This document shows positions 43,370 to 48,441 of a DNA stretch of 64,000 bases, piece by piece. The notes beneath the pieces were generated by a model, which had not been told where the DNA came from, searched no databases, and saw nothing but the letters and a program-made list of their open reading frames with translations. Where the stretch lies: assembly GCF_034044635.1 (NCBI RefSeq), contig NZ_JAXCLX010000001.1:868001-932000 (forward strand), written 5' to 3'. The DNA is from Dongia rigui. GTDB lineage: Bacteria > Pseudomonadota > Alphaproteobacteria > Dongiales > Dongiaceae. A program made the position numbers and the translations under genes. How positions within the stretch are numbered: the first letter of the stretch is position 1; each line of letters opens with the position of its first letter.

Positions 43370-43605
43370 AATCGATAAAATGCGAGCGATCCAATGCGCC
43401 CTTATCCACCAATGACATAGCTGATTTGGGGGGAATTTCCGCAGGTTAGCAGGCCTCTTTTTGCCCCATGACAGCAACGCATGGCTTGGAATTGGGGGTT
43501 CCAACCCCTATTCTTGAGAGACCTTTTCAGCGGGATTCCGAGTCTGGCGCCTGACATATGGCGAAAATCGGCTTTCTGCCCTCGATTTTGCCCAAGGAAC
43601 GCGCC

Positions 43606-44574
43606 ATGACCCAGGAAATCAAAACCAAAGTTCTCATCATCGGCTCTGGCCCGGCCGGCTACACCGCCGCCATCTACGCCGCGCGCGCCAATCTGAAGCC
43701 GATCCTGGTCCAGGGCATCCAGCCGGGCGGGCAGCTGACCATCACCACCGATGTCGAGAATTATCCGGGCTTTGCCGACGTCATCCAGGGCCCCTGGCTG
43801 ATGGAGCAGATGCAAAAACAGGCCGAGCATGTCGGCACCCAGACCATTTTCGACACCATCCTCGAGGTCGATTTCTCGCGCCGCCCGTTCCGCGCCATGG
43901 GCGATTCCGGCGACACCTATGTGGCCGAGACGCTGATCATCGCGACCGGCGCCCAGGCCCGCTGGCTGGGTCTTGAATCGGAAAAGAAGTTCCAGGGCTT
44001 CGGCGTCTCCGCTTGCGCCACCTGCGACGGCTTCTTCTTCCGCGAGAAGGAGGTCGTCATCGTCGGCGGCGGCAACACGGCGGTCGAGGAGGCGATCTAC
44101 CTCACCAATCATGCCAGCAAGGTGACGCTGGTGCATCGCCGCGACCATCTGCGCGCCGAGAAGATCATGCAGGACCGCCTGTTCCGCAATCCGAAGATCA
44201 AGCTGGTCTGGAATTCGGTGGTCGAGGAAGTGGTCGGCGACAGCGATCCCATCGGCGTCACGGGCGTCAAGGTCAAGAACGTCATCACCGGCGAGCTGTC
44301 GACCATCCCCGCCGACGGTTTTTTCGTGGCGATCGGCCATTCGCCGGCGACCGCGCTGTTCAAGGGCAAGCTGGAATTGGACAATGAGGGTTACCTCATC
44401 ACCAAGCCGGACAGCACCGCCACCAACATTCCCGGCGTCTTTGCCGCCGGCGACGTGAAGGACAAGGTCTTCCGCCAGGCGGTCACCGCCGCCGGCATGG
44501 GCTGCATGGCGGCACTCGAGGCCGAACGCTTTATCGCCGCCCACGAACACGAAACTGCCCAAGCTGCTGAGTAA
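43606..44574 (+). CDS. trxB: Thioredoxin-disulfide reductase
   Basis: 322 residues from ATG 43606 with AAGGA upstream; the ATG at 43558 would add 16 residues. FAD-binding GSGPAGYTAAIYAARA, NADP-binding VVIVGGGNTAVEEA and redox motif CATC (Cys137, Cys140 in SACATCDGFFF) are intact. It keeps thioredoxin reduced using NADPH. A LysR gene follows at 105 bp on the same strand. The 236 bp upstream are non-coding and hold a tight palindrome GGGGTTCCAACCCC at 43495–43508. Confidence 0.96.
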   Translation: MTQEIKTKVLIIGSGPAGYTAAIYAARANLKPILVQGIQPGGQLTITTDVENYPGFADVIQGPWLMEQMQKQAEHVGTQTIFDTILEVDFSRRPFRAMGDSGDTYVAETLIIATGAQARWLGLESEKKFQGFGVSACATCDGFFFREKEVVIVGGGNTAVEEAIYLTNHASKVTLVHRRDHLRAEKIMQDRLFRNPKIKLVWNSVVEEVVGDSDPIGVTGVKVKNVITGELSTIPADGFFVAIGHSPATALFKGKLELDNEGYLITKPDSTATNIPGVFAAGDVKDKVFRQAVTAAGMGCMAALEAERFIAAHEHETAQAAE

Positions 44575-44679: not shown

Positions 44680-45582
44680 ATGTCGATGGATTGGGACAAG
44701 CTCAGAATCTTCCACGCCGTGGCCGAAGCCGGCTCCTTCACCCATGCCGGTGAGGTGCTGAACCTCAGCCAATCGGCCGTATCGCGCCAGATCTCCTCGC
44801 TGGAGGAGAGCCTCAACGTCGCCCTCTTCCACCGTCATGCCCGCGGCCTGATCCTCACCGAGCAGGGCGAGTTGCTCTATCGCACGGCACACGAAGTCTT
44901 TTCGAAGCTCGCCATGGCCGAGGCGCAGCTGGCAGAGTCGAAGGATCGCCCCAAGGGTCAGTTGAAGGTCACGGCGACGCAGGCCTTCGGCTCATCCTGG
45001 CTCACTCCCGTCCTCCTCGAATTCATCGACCTCTACCCCGATGTCGAGGTGGACCTGGTGCTTGAGGACCGCGAACTCGATCTTTCCATGCGCGAAGCCG
45101 ACGTTGCCATCCGCATGGCGCCGCCGCGCCAGCCGGAACTCATCCAGCGCCATTTGATGACGGTGCATCTCAACATCTATGCCGCACCCTCGTATTTGAA
45201 GCGCCACGGCATCCCCAAGGTGCCGGAGGACATCGACCAGCACCGCGTCATCGTCTACGGCAACGACATGCGCCCGCCGGTCGAGGATATCGACTGGCTG
45301 CTGCGCGCCGGCACGCGCAAGGACAAGCCGCGTCGGCCGATCCTGCGCGTCAATTCGGTCTATGCGATCCTGCGTGCCGTGCAATCGGGCCTTGGTCTTG
45401 CAAGCCTTCCCGAATTCATGATCACGGAAGGCACCAGCCTAGTGCGCGTGCTGCCGGAACTGCAGGGTCCGCGCATCGACGCCTATTTCGTCTATCCGGA
45501 AGAACTCCGCAATTCGAAGCGCATCCAGGTCTTCCGCGACTTCCTGCTGCGCAAAGTCGCCGAAAGCAAGATGCAGAGCTGA
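44680..45582 (+). CDS. LysR-family transcriptional regulator
   Basis: 300 residues; ATG at 44680, with another at 44686. The N-terminal helix-turn-helix (WDKLRIFHAVAEAGSFTHAGEVLNLSQSAVSRQISSLE) and C-terminal LysR substrate domain are full length. It lies downstream of trxB on the same strand, an arrangement I associate with alphaproteobacteria, and may respond to redox state; this is inference. Its 3' end is four bases from the convergent phosphatase gene. Confidence 0.92.
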   Translation: MSMDWDKLRIFHAVAEAGSFTHAGEVLNLSQSAVSRQISSLEESLNVALFHRHARGLILTEQGELLYRTAHEVFSKLAMAEAQLAESKDRPKGQLKVTATQAFGSSWLTPVLLEFIDLYPDVEVDLVLEDRELDLSMREADVAIRMAPPRQPELIQRHLMTVHLNIYAAPSYLKRHGIPKVPEDIDQHRVIVYGNDMRPPVEDIDWLLRAGTRKDKPRRPILRVNSVYAILRAVQSGLGLASLPEFMITEGTSLVRVLPELQGPRIDAYFVYPEELRNSKRIQVFRDFLLRKVAESKMQS

Positions 45583-45586
45583 CGGC

Positions 45587-46237
45587 CTACCACCAGCCCG
45601 GTTCGGCCGCGTCCGCCCAGTCATCAACATCCAGCCGTGCCACCACGGTAACACCGCCTTTGCCGTCAGGCTTCAGCAGCGCCACCTCGGCAAAACCGAG
45701 ATCGACACCGGTCAGATCGCGCAGCTGTGAATCGCTGCCGACGATGACCGTATTCGTGCCGGCCGGCACTGGCTGCAGCGTCAGCTGCCTTAGAAAATCG
45801 ACATCGAACAGGCGCGGATCGACTTCCGCTGCACCAAAGGCCAGGATCGCCGTGTCGCGGGTGCGGCAGGGGGCATTGGCAATGACCCGCTGCACCGGGA
45901 TGCGCAACATGCGCCAATAGGCGCCGATCTCGCGCGCCTGTACCTGCCCTTCGGGTGTCAAATTGCGCTGCCTGCGGCAATCGGCAAATTGGGCGGCGCT
46001 CGACCAGCGATCCAGCTTTTCTCGCGGCCCGGCGAAGCGCGCGGCATGGCGCAGATAAACGACGTTGCCGCCCCGCTGTAGTTCGGCAATGGCATGGGCC
46101 TCGTCGAGCTCGTCCTCGATCGCCATGGCAGCGCAGCCCAGCGCCAGCAAGGCAACGAGGCCACCCGCCAAACGAAGGGCACCGAGCCACCAGGGATTGG
46201 GAAAGCAGCGGCCAGCGCCGCGACGCAAAAGAGACAT
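45587..46237 (-). CDS. Histidine phosphatase superfamily protein, altered active site
   Basis: 216 residues with an N-terminal membrane or signal segment (LRLAGGLVALLALGCAAMA, about 20–39). The first catalytic motif is VVYLRHAAR, keeping Arg and His, and CRTRDTA supplies a second Arg. In the place where the second catalytic histidine normally sits (VGH-type), the sequence reads VGSDSQLRDLTG. Either another residue does the job or the protein no longer acts as a classical phosphatase. It is exported or anchored facing the periplasm. No operon partner. Confidence 0.78.
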   Translation of the reverse strand: MSLLRRGAGRCFPNPWWLGALRLAGGLVALLALGCAAMAIEDELDEAHAIAELQRGGNVVYLRHAARFAGPREKLDRWSSAAQFADCRRQRNLTPEGQVQAREIGAYWRMLRIPVQRVIANAPCRTRDTAILAFGAAEVDPRLFDVDFLRQLTLQPVPAGTNTVIVGSDSQLRDLTGVDLGFAEVALLKPDGKGGVTVVARLDVDDWADAAEPGWW

Positions 46238-46439: not shown

Positions 46440-46688
46440 TCAGCCGCGCTGGCCGCTACCCAGGATCGCCGCCGCCCGAGCATTCTTCTTGGCGTCATTG
46501 ACCACCAGAATCGCATGCAATGCCGCGATGAGCCACAGCACGAAACCGGGCGACCCGCCCAGGAACAGGCTGAAGACGAAGACCACCCAGGCAAGGATAT
46601 AGATGACCAGGTTGATGATGGCCTGGAACACCTTGCCATAGAGCAGCAGCGCCAGCGGCGGCAGGACCAGGGCAACGAGGTAGATCAT
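46440..46688 (-). CDS. Pmp3/YqaE-like small membrane protein
   Basis: 82 residues from ATG 46688 (AAGGAG ten bases upstream). Two hydrophobic helices (about 2–18 and 25–50) and a third partial one carry VLPPLALLLYGKVFQAIINLVI and FVLWLIAALHAILVV, which match the LPPL and W-IAALHA landmarks of the Pmp3/YqaE family, followed by a short basic tail. Family members affect membrane potential and ion tolerance. Longer than the usual 50–60 residues. Confidence 0.72.
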   Translation of the reverse strand: MIYLVALVLPPLALLLYGKVFQAIINLVIYILAWVVFVFSLFLGGSPGFVLWLIAALHAILVVNDAKKNARAAAILGSGQRG

Positions 46689-47276
46689 CGGCGCATCACT
46701 CCTTCGTGGGACGGCATCATTAGATAGGCCGCCCAACGCCCTGCGCAATCCGTCTGCCCCCGGAACCCGGCCGTCAACAGAGAGACACAACCGGCAGCGA
46801 CCTGTGCGGTGGGCGGCATTTCTGCCTATTCAACGGGCGCTGCGATGCAGCAAAATCAGGCATTTCTGCGCTATCGCGACACGGACGTCGCTGCTTGAAA
46901 ACCCTGCCGACTCGATAGGGAAATCAAGCTTGCAACAGTGATCGCGCTGTCAGAGGTCCGGGAAAAGTGCAATCGCGCACCCTGCGACAGATTCGCACGA
47001 CCCCCACTTCGGCAGTGCAGCAAACAACCTAAATGTATGAAATATATAGCTTTGTACGCTATGCAGCCAATGCATGCCCTATCTGTGAATTTGACTCTGG
47101 TGGCCACCGCCAATTCCTCTATTCTCCCCCTGTGCCGGGCAGCCACACTGTTGCATAAAAGCAACAGACGGAACGTTTCAATCCGCCGGTGGTTGAATGG
47201 TCACGATGGCGCCTTATTTGGCAGACATGGTGATCACCGATCACAGAGTTTCGAAGCGATAGCTTCACACTGAATT
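46689..47276. other. 588 bp without a protein gene, lower GC
   Basis: No convincing frame is present; the longest (46938–47273, plus) has no family features. The stretch is noticeably richer in A and T around 47025–47070. It holds two copies of GGCATTTCTGC (about 46815 and 46857), a perfect inverted repeat at 47148–47167 (CTGTTGC, six-base spacer, GCAACAG) and the palindrome GGTGATCACC at 47229–47238. It should contain the promoter of the downstream RNA. Confidence 0.6.
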
Positions 47277-47373
47277 CGGGCGCGACGCCCGGATGGGGTC
47301 TTCGGACCCTACGTCTCCCAGACGTAAAGCCTCCCTGTTTAACTTGCCGGGCCTCGTGCCCGGCAGTTTTTTT
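47277..47373 (+). ncRNA. Structured small RNA candidate, MmgR/suhB-like
   Basis: Four consecutive helices: CGGGCG/CGCCCG (47277–47291), GGGTC/GACCC with a TTCG loop (47296–47309), ACGTCT/AGACGT with a CCC loop (47311–47325), and a terminator TGCCGGGC/GCCCGGCA followed by seven T (47345–47373). Between helices three and four lies an unpaired AAAGCCTCCCTGTTTAACT, whose CCUCCCU can pair with Shine-Dalgarno sequences. A CCUCCC single-stranded core before the terminator is a known feature of the alphaproteobacterial MmgR/suhB RNA family; I assign this by memory of that feature, not by alignment. The 5' end is estimated. Confidence 0.65.
47345..47373 (+). terminator. Rho-independent terminator of the small RNA
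   Basis: Eight-base-pair GC-rich stem (47346–47353 with 47358–47365), short CTCG-containing loop, then G and seven T. A textbook terminator with no protein gene in front of it, which is the main argument for an RNA gene. Confidence 0.88.
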
Positions 47374-47397
47374 ATGGGCCTTTTCTTGGTCGGGCGC

Positions 47398-48222
47398 CTA
47401 TTGCCCCTGCCAGGCCTTGATCGCCTCCGCAATCAGCCCGTCCATGACCTTTGCATCACGGAACTTCATCATCGCCTTGGCGAGCTTGCCGCGCATCGCG
47501 CCGTCATTGCAGGCCGAGCGGTGCGAGAGGGTCAGGTAGAGGTCTTCATTGCTGATCGAGGCCTTGGCCTCCTTGAGGTGCTTGATGCCAAGGCGGGCGG
47601 CAAAGGCGCGGGCTGGGGCATCCTCATAAACCAGGTAATCGGCGCGACCATGCGAAAGGAGTTGCAGCGCGTTGTCGAGCTTGCCGACTTCTTCGATCTT
47701 CAGGTTTTCCTTGGCGTAGCGGTCGAAGGCCTCGCCAAAACTGTTGTTGATGACGGTGACCCCCTTATGCGCAACGAGGTCCGGCCACTTGGCATATTTC
47801 AGCCGGCTGTCCTCGCGCGTGATGACGACCGAGCGCGTGGTTGCGATGATGGGGTGGACATAGTCCATGTAGTCGAGGCGCGGCTGGGTCAGGAAGGCGC
47901 CGGCGATGAGATCGATGCGGCCGTTCTTCATCTCCTCCTGCACCCGTGCCCAGGAGCTGATATAGCGCACCTCGATCGGCAGACCGATCTCCTGCGACAG
48001 CAGCGTCATCAATGCGGCATTGGCGCCGATCAATCGATTGCCATTGGCAGGGTCGCGCCACAGATAGGGCGGGTAATCCGGATTGCCGGAAGCGATGAGG
48101 CCGCTGCACGCCGCATGGGCCGCTTGGCCGAACAGCGACATCGCTGCCAATGCGATGGCGAACCAGGCAGATCGCGCGTGACGGCGCCCGCAAAGCCAGC
48201 GCGACCAGACCGACTGCGCCAT
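47398..48222 (-). CDS. Family 3 periplasmic solute-binding protein
   Basis: 274 residues from ATG 48222 (AGGAGGGGG upstream). A signal peptide ends near AHA (residue 30). The SBP_bac_3 fold shows as GNPDYPPYLWRDPANGNRLIGANAALM, EVRYISSWARVQEEMKNGRIDLIAGAF and NNSFGEAFDRYAKENL. Such proteins bind amino acids or serve as sensors, but no ABC permease is adjacent, so it is an orphan. The Cys in HAACSG may pair with Cys of RSACNDG. Convergent with the small RNA, 24 bp apart. Confidence 0.88.
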   Translation of the reverse strand: MAQSVWSRWLCGRRHARSAWFAIALAAMSLFGQAAHAACSGLIASGNPDYPPYLWRDPANGNRLIGANAALMTLLSQEIGLPIEVRYISSWARVQEEMKNGRIDLIAGAFLTQPRLDYMDYVHPIIATTRSVVITREDSRLKYAKWPDLVAHKGVTVINNSFGEAFDRYAKENLKIEEVGKLDNALQLLSHGRADYLVYEDAPARAFAARLGIKHLKEAKASISNEDLYLTLSHRSACNDGAMRGKLAKAMMKFRDAKVMDGLIAEAIKAWQGQ

Positions 48223-48441
48223 AAGCCCCCTCCTAACCCCCAACCGACGTGCCTTAGTCTAGGCAAGCGGAAGCCGTTAGAAAATCCCAATCTCACGTGA
48301 CATGCCGGCAAAATGTCATCGCTGCACGCAAACGCTGCGCATCAACACGTCCTGATTGCGGGGGCGAGCAGTGTTTCATCAGCGCAGTAGCATTGCATTC
48401 ATGGCGCTGGCACGCGCCCCATACTTCCGGCAGTGTGCCGC

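Follow-up and report, generated by a model that had tools for sequence, protein, structure and literature searches.

A conserved anti-Shine-Dalgarno small RNA downstream of trxB-lsrB in Dongia rigui, a probable LsrB-controlled counterpart of AbcR in Rhodospirillales

Main finding

A 64,000-nucleotide stretch of the Dongia rigui genome (contig NZ_JAXCLX010000001.1, positions 868,001 to 932,000; hereafter the window) encodes a small RNA that, judged from sequence, is probably a trans-acting anti-Shine-Dalgarno regulator under the control of LsrB, the Rhodospirillales counterpart of AbcR and a sequence relative of SorX and SorY. The basis of this reading is conservation, gene order, operator enrichment and target complementarity. 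In the mechanism we propose, an LsrB/VtlR-type LysR protein would bind the box ATGC-N7-GCAT, which precedes the predicted start by about 64 nt, and LsrB, sensing the redox state, would activate transcription of the sRNA. The RNA would expose CCUCCCUGUU between hairpin HP3 and the terminator, along with CUCCCA in the HP3 loop region, and through both motifs it may base-pair with ABC-transporter mRNAs at their ribosome-binding sites, chiefly with those of two PotD-like (polyamine-type) genes. This pairing is predicted to block translation of the transporter mRNAs. By covering transporter ribosome-binding sites, the sRNA would probably shut down the import of polyamines and of other nutrients. 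An earlier note on this DNA had proposed a stand-alone sRNA whose anti-Shine-Dalgarno core is fit to mask ribosome sites, and this proposal is supported by the conserved core and stems and by the specific predicted targets. The features are collected in Table 1. Statements on published systems follow the available excerpts of the papers cited.

Table 1. Features of the sRNA locus and of the upstream trxB-lsrB genes, in window coordinates
Feature	Position	Strand	Remarks
trxB, thioredoxin reductase	43558..44574	+	TIGR01292, 419.3 bits vs cut-off 343.45
lsrB/vtlR-type LysR regulator	44680..45582	+	phmmer E 1e-100 to PDB 9HH1
LsrB-type operator ATGC-N7-GCAT (predicted)	47061..47075	+	enriched upstream of sRNA copies
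-10-like TATTCT (predicted)	47120..47125	+	by reading; by eye, many relatives have TAT-like hexamers at a similar spacing from the box
Primary transcript of the sRNA (predicted)	47132..47373	+	inferred from box, -10 and terminator
Hairpin HP1, CGGGC-GCGAC-GCCCG	47277..47291	+	window sequence
Hairpin HP2, GGGTC-TTCG-GACCC	47296..47309	+	stem with differing arms across relatives
Match to covariance model R1	47309..47373	+	78.2 bits; the window sequence is itself in the model
Hairpin HP3, TACGTCT-CCC-AGACGTA	47310..47326	+	near-invariant in alignment A1
CUCCCA (AbcR M1 motif) in HP3 loop region	47315-47320	+	motif per excerpts of PMC5461406
Stretch AAG-CCTCCCTGTTTAAC	~47327-47343	+	between HP3 and terminator
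Anti-Shine-Dalgarno core CCUCCCUGUU	47330..47339	+	predicted seed for PotD-like mRNAs
Intrinsic terminator	47344..47373	+	stem 47344-47366, seven T 47367-47373

Structure of the RNA and its predicted ends

Between 47277 and 47373 the letters hold what the earlier note had described, namely hairpins, a CU-rich core and a strong terminator, and the RNA carries CCTCCCTGTT beside the small hairpins. The 97-nt piece folds at -48.1 kcal/mol, against an average of -33.35 for 200 shuffles (z -4.54), none of which folds as well. A scan of 3 kb found four terminator-like sites where 2.3 were expected, and the sRNA terminator has the longest stem of them, with nine pairs. Within the core, CCUCCCUG is invariant in alignments A1 and A2, and the base that follows is mostly T. 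As for CUCCCA, C47315-U47316 and A47320 belong to the stem ends of HP3.

Two structural claims, an exposed core and three stems in the 5' part, are confirmed in the sequence, with caveats on folding. All three stems are present in the sequence, and HP2 is backed by relatives; HP1, however, is absent from the minimum-energy fold of the 97 nt, in which the terminator takes up its arms, and the same fold places the core in a weak four-pair hairpin. When HP1 is omitted from the folding, the local hairpins, an open core and the terminator all form. The evidence from relatives for HP2 is that, of 146 distinct copies, 109 have a gap-free stem of at least six pairs, G-U pairs included, immediately before HP3, whereas 30 dinucleotide shuffles gave 24.2 such copies on average. 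Stems of at least five pairs comprise 62 distinct arm pairs.

The box and the TATTCT hexamer, taken together, lead us to predict a start near 47132. It is thus probable that 47277 is not the true 5' end, the conserved promoter-like elements lying well before it, and that the transcript is about 242 nt long in the genus Dongia unless it is processed, which makes the length of 95-100 nt given in the earlier note doubtful. A generic sigma-70 scan did not report a promoter at TATTCT. An inverted repeat resembling TGTTGC...GCAACA (47149-47166 in the window) recurs across distant taxa near the predicted 5' end, as in L011, L089 and other loci, and could represent a 5' hairpin under conservation. An ORF of small size within the leader was rejected, since by eye it is not kept in genome G001, and so was, as a gene, a mechanically called 111-aa ORF on the forward strand (46938-47273), which has in-frame stops in loci L002, L003, L004, L005 and L006. 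PMC7685610 on Azospirillum and PMC5107571 on Paracoccus gave no usable transcript evidence.

Gene order and the predicted LsrB-type operator

The LysR gene is encoded 1.5 kb upstream of the sRNA and follows trxB, an order as in Agrobacterium tumefaciens, where the genes run trxB-vtlR-abcR1-abcR2 and AbcR1 requires VtlR (PMC7486931). In S. meliloti, SMc01226 and lsrB flank AbcR1/2 (PMC3712013). The best solved relative of the window LysR protein is 9HH1, the structure of A. tumefaciens LsrB, a regulator that senses the redox state (PMC11975290). Neither the upstream trxB-lsrB pair nor the LsrB-type operator had been mentioned in the earlier note. Two likely genes on the opposite strand, 45587-46237 (-) and 46440-46715 (-), lie between lsrB and the sRNA, and the nearest likely genes on either side of the sRNA are both on the opposite strand.

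When gapped words were counted upstream of 144 sRNA copies, ATGC-N7-GCAT ranked first, with 92 copies, and the box is found within 450 nt upstream of 98 of 151 copies. Of the 133 distinct copies whose upstream 450 nt are complete, 92 have the box and 41 lack it, while 50 dinucleotide shuffles averaged 1.28 and never exceeded 4. The initial shuffle controls (for gapped words, for the 98/151 box count and for HP2 arm pairs) kept base composition only, and two were redone with dinucleotide shuffles. The density of the box is 1.89 per kb upstream of the sRNA versus 0.014 per kb in the remainder of these loci, a 132-fold difference; the flanks of suhB contain it in 1 of 24 cases. Of 40 further stretches from the class sample, each covering about 620 nt after lsrB, 17 contain the box as well.

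ATGC-N7-GCAT has the T-N11-A layout of LysR-type sites, and the VtlR/LsrB box of the literature, GCAT-N3-TG-N3-T (PMC7486931, PMC8844928), coincides in part with its right half. That published box lies at -61 to -49 of PabcR1 (PMC8844928). The published form fits exactly in 19 of 97 boxes. The box of the window fits ATGC-N7-GCAT, and its right half, GCATGCCCTATCT, is without the published TG. A second word, TTGC-N2-7-GCAA, recurs upstream of 28 of 144 copies (shuffle mean 3.06). A PhaR-type operator was considered for this repeat and set aside, because the window copy of the repeat forms an RNA hairpin and because several relatives have it close to the predicted start.

Distribution and linkage to lsrB

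Of 61 relatives searched by BLASTN with the 201-base locus, 32 carry the RNA, and these fall in 22 of 51 genera. The genome of D. rigui itself gave one match, that is, a single copy, and two of the 16 relatives in its own family (G007 and G011) gave none. The CCUCCC core and the stems, on whose conservation the earlier note had staked its reading, are kept across relatives. An exact core pattern with 25 specified bases matched at least 119 stretches in public contigs, and among the matches listed are titles of Azospirillum, Roseomonas, Reyranella, Thalassospira, Magnetovibrio, Kiloniella, Belnapia and Nisaea, as well as two metagenome bins titled Rhizobium sp. Q54. Azospirillum brasilense is one of the species with the RNA (locus L089). 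Loci chosen by this pattern carry no information on the conservation of that core, while loci found by BLASTN do. The 151 copies that were fetched include three repeats and so represent 148 distinct ones.

A covariance model, R1, was built from 47 sequences, some from genomes of the class sample on which it was then run, and it retained five base pairs only, those of HP3. R1 matches 91 of 192 sampled alphaproteobacterial genomes, matches that inform on conservation only in part because the model was built from pattern-chosen as well as BLASTN loci.

Among the relatives, 30 of the 32 with a BLASTN match have an LsrB match as well; as read by eye, the RNA lies downstream of lsrB in 28 of these 30, in the same orientation and no more than about 5 kb away. 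In the class sample, the RNA is downstream of lsrB, on the same strand and within 6 kb, in 74 of the 82 genomes that have both, with a median gap of 225 nt; 16 of the 74 rest on weak R1 matches below 45 bits, and the count becomes 74 of 84 when omitted weak LysR rows are added. The genes are unlinked in the other eight genomes, in six of which they are on different contigs, and 25 of 43 weak R1 matches do not adjoin lsrB. Nine R1-positive class genomes have no typed LsrB row, and 32 genomes with a typed LsrB have no R1 match. In the fetched loci a LysR gene is found upstream of 117 of the 151 copies, always on the same strand. The upstream span of the other 34 is below 700 nt in 11, about 1 to 1.6 kb in 11 and at least 2 kb in 12, so that these last 12 are truly without a close lsrB.

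Predicted targets

The reverse complement of the core placed before a start codon, ACAGGGAGG-N3-10-ATG, has exactly two matches in the 4.66-Mb genome, and the reversed-pattern control has one. Both matches belong to genes for PotD-like substrate-binding proteins, for which the best NCBIfam model is PotD, at 162.1 and 95.3 bits and hence far under its cut-off of 582. The duplexes predicted between the sRNA and these two mRNAs reach -32.1 and -29.7 kcal/mol, compared with an average of -14.8 and a best value of -27.2 for 141 control ORF starts, a comparison that favours the two targets, themselves picked by complementarity. These controls are mechanical ORF starts, many of them not real genes, from which some starts bearing CAGGGAG had been removed.

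For the orthologues of the two genes, 8 of 17 and 10 of 17 genomes keep at least 8 nt of AACAGGGAGG in the 28 nt that precede a possible start, counting the best match per genome and the best of all possible starts, and fewer than 8 nt are kept in 9 of 17 and 7 of 17. Out of 1000 shuffled decamers, one reaches the count of 8 and three reach at least 10, none reaching both, and those that score best closely resemble the real word. When the pattern is widened to CAGGGAG-N4-10-ATG, the genome yields 47 matches versus 5 for the reversed control, as is to be expected of a word that resembles a Shine-Dalgarno site. Among the 30 of these 47 that were fetched are, besides the two PotD-like genes, genes for a PotC-like permease and for a binding protein of the oligopeptide type, together with non-transport genes such as those for a GatZ-like protein and an amino acid kinase. 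The convergent substrate-binding gene at 47398-48243 was dropped as a target, its printed start contexts containing no ACAGGGAGG.

Relation to known small RNA families and other readings

Every Rfam family stays below its cut-off over the whole window. The system closest in arrangement is AbcR1/AbcR2 (alpha-r15, RF02345), described from Rhizobiaceae and Brucellaceae (PMC3712013). The window RNA shares with it the position downstream of trxB-lsrB/vtlR (PMC7486931), a palindromic LsrB-type box upstream, here a predicted one, the motif CUCCCA in a hairpin (PMC5461406) followed by a second CU-rich single strand between hairpins, and, as predicted, ABC substrate-binding genes as targets. In contrast, M1 (CUCCCA) is in the first hairpin of AbcR (PMC5461406) and in HP3 of the window RNA; M2 of AbcR, between hairpins, is GUUCCC or UUCCCCUC, where the window RNA has CCUCCCUGUU; and AbcR is present in several copies per genome, unlike the single RNA of D. 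rigui. The ar15 model has no match up to E 10 in 47100-47500. It matched none of the 192 sampled genomes, and since no control genome was matched either, this is weak evidence of absence. Because the ar15 model gives no match and M2 differs, we regard the window RNA as a counterpart of AbcR and do not file it as AbcR.

With relaxed thresholds, the best Rfam match in 47100-47500 is SorX (RF02784), at 43.8 bits with E 1.6e-9; JA04, SorY, anti-hemB and suhB follow, all far below their cut-offs. SorX and SorY (RF02651) of Rhodobacter share with the window RNA a hairpin, then CUCCCUGUU-GGAC, then a terminator. The target of SorX is a subunit of a spermidine transporter and that of SorY is a malate transporter, and both are controlled by stress sigma factors (PMC8307010). 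The window RNA might be a strict member of the SorX family, with induction in photooxidative stress depending on heat-shock-type sigma factors and not on LsrB, and it is consistent with this that the sRNA locus is the only match of the SorX model in the genome at E 0.001. We consider this unlikely, since the score is under the cut-off of 46.6 (as it is under that of SorY), since SorX is derived from a 3'UTR whereas the window RNA stands alone between likely genes of the opposite strand, and since the LsrB-type box and the linkage to lsrB speak against it. In two genomes of one family, L202 and L203, the SorX and SorY models match directly downstream of lsrB, SorX in L202 at 52.3 bits, above its cut-off, and SorY in L203 at 62.1 bits, below its cut-off of 111. 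Locus L162 (G038:C3:381885-382107) has two tandem SorX copies, at 69.8 and 64.8 bits, with lsrB on another contig.

The frequent spacing of only about 225 nt after lsrB would also suit a terminator and leader without activity in trans, the linkage then reflecting the 3' end of the lsrB transcript. This seems very unlikely to us: two likely genes on the opposite strand intervene in the window, the box precedes the RNA, the near-invariant core lies outside the terminator and is not needed for termination, and the RNA is also found unlinked to lsrB.

The remaining resemblance, to MmgR/SisA (alpha-r8), was the one the earlier note had drawn from the core. The window RNA is like this family in having a CCUCCC anti-Shine-Dalgarno core and a terminator, but the alpha-r8 core is UUUCCUCCCU and in most species it adjoins an FGase gene (PMC12559287), so that both the core flanks and the usual neighbours differ. 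That the window RNA is an MmgR/suhB RNA acting on carbon storage is scarcely credible and largely refuted, as the covariance comparison that the note had suggested gave a weak 22.6 bits for suhB (RF00519) in 47100-47500, under the cut-off of 41, and a separate suhB RNA scores 59.9 bits elsewhere in the same genome, from which it follows that the window RNA is not the alpha-r8 RNA. CcnA was also rejected, its pairing motif being CCCC in a loop (PMC8959179).

Possible origin and variants of the locus

AbcR has been described from two Rhizobiales families, and SorX/SorY from Rhodobacter. Open-access literature, including that on AbcR1 in Rhodobacterales and on VtlR/LsrB in Rhodospirillales, yielded no paper that describes the window RNA or that links AbcR1 with Rhodospirillales or AbcR with SorX. 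Whether an LsrB-type regulator and a neighbouring anti-Shine-Dalgarno sRNA form an ancestral module of the Alphaproteobacteria is, in our judgement, evenly balanced; AbcR in Rhizobiales, SorX/SorY in Rhodobacterales and the window RNA in Rhodospirillales would then be divergent descendants, and the redox signal of LsrB would throttle the import of polyamines and amino acids throughout the class. If there is one such old module, the riboregulation of ABC transporters in plant- and animal-associated bacteria would be a general alphaproteobacterial circuit tied to the redox state. It would also mean that Rfam lacks a family and that LsrB has a class-wide operator, and it would supply testable targets.

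Among the copies listed, L037 (Thalassospira australica), L117 and L119 have two tandem sRNA copies, each with its own ATGC-N7-GCAT box, and these pairs resemble the tandem AbcR pair. Loci L213, L232, L214 and L231, which neither R1 nor Rfam matches, have CU-rich stretches after lsrB, most of them with terminators, and these are possible diverged counterparts of the sRNA. Downstream of lsrB, L200 and L201 have several CU-rich RNAs in tandem that bear CCUCCCUGUU and are accompanied by terminators, with three copies in L200.
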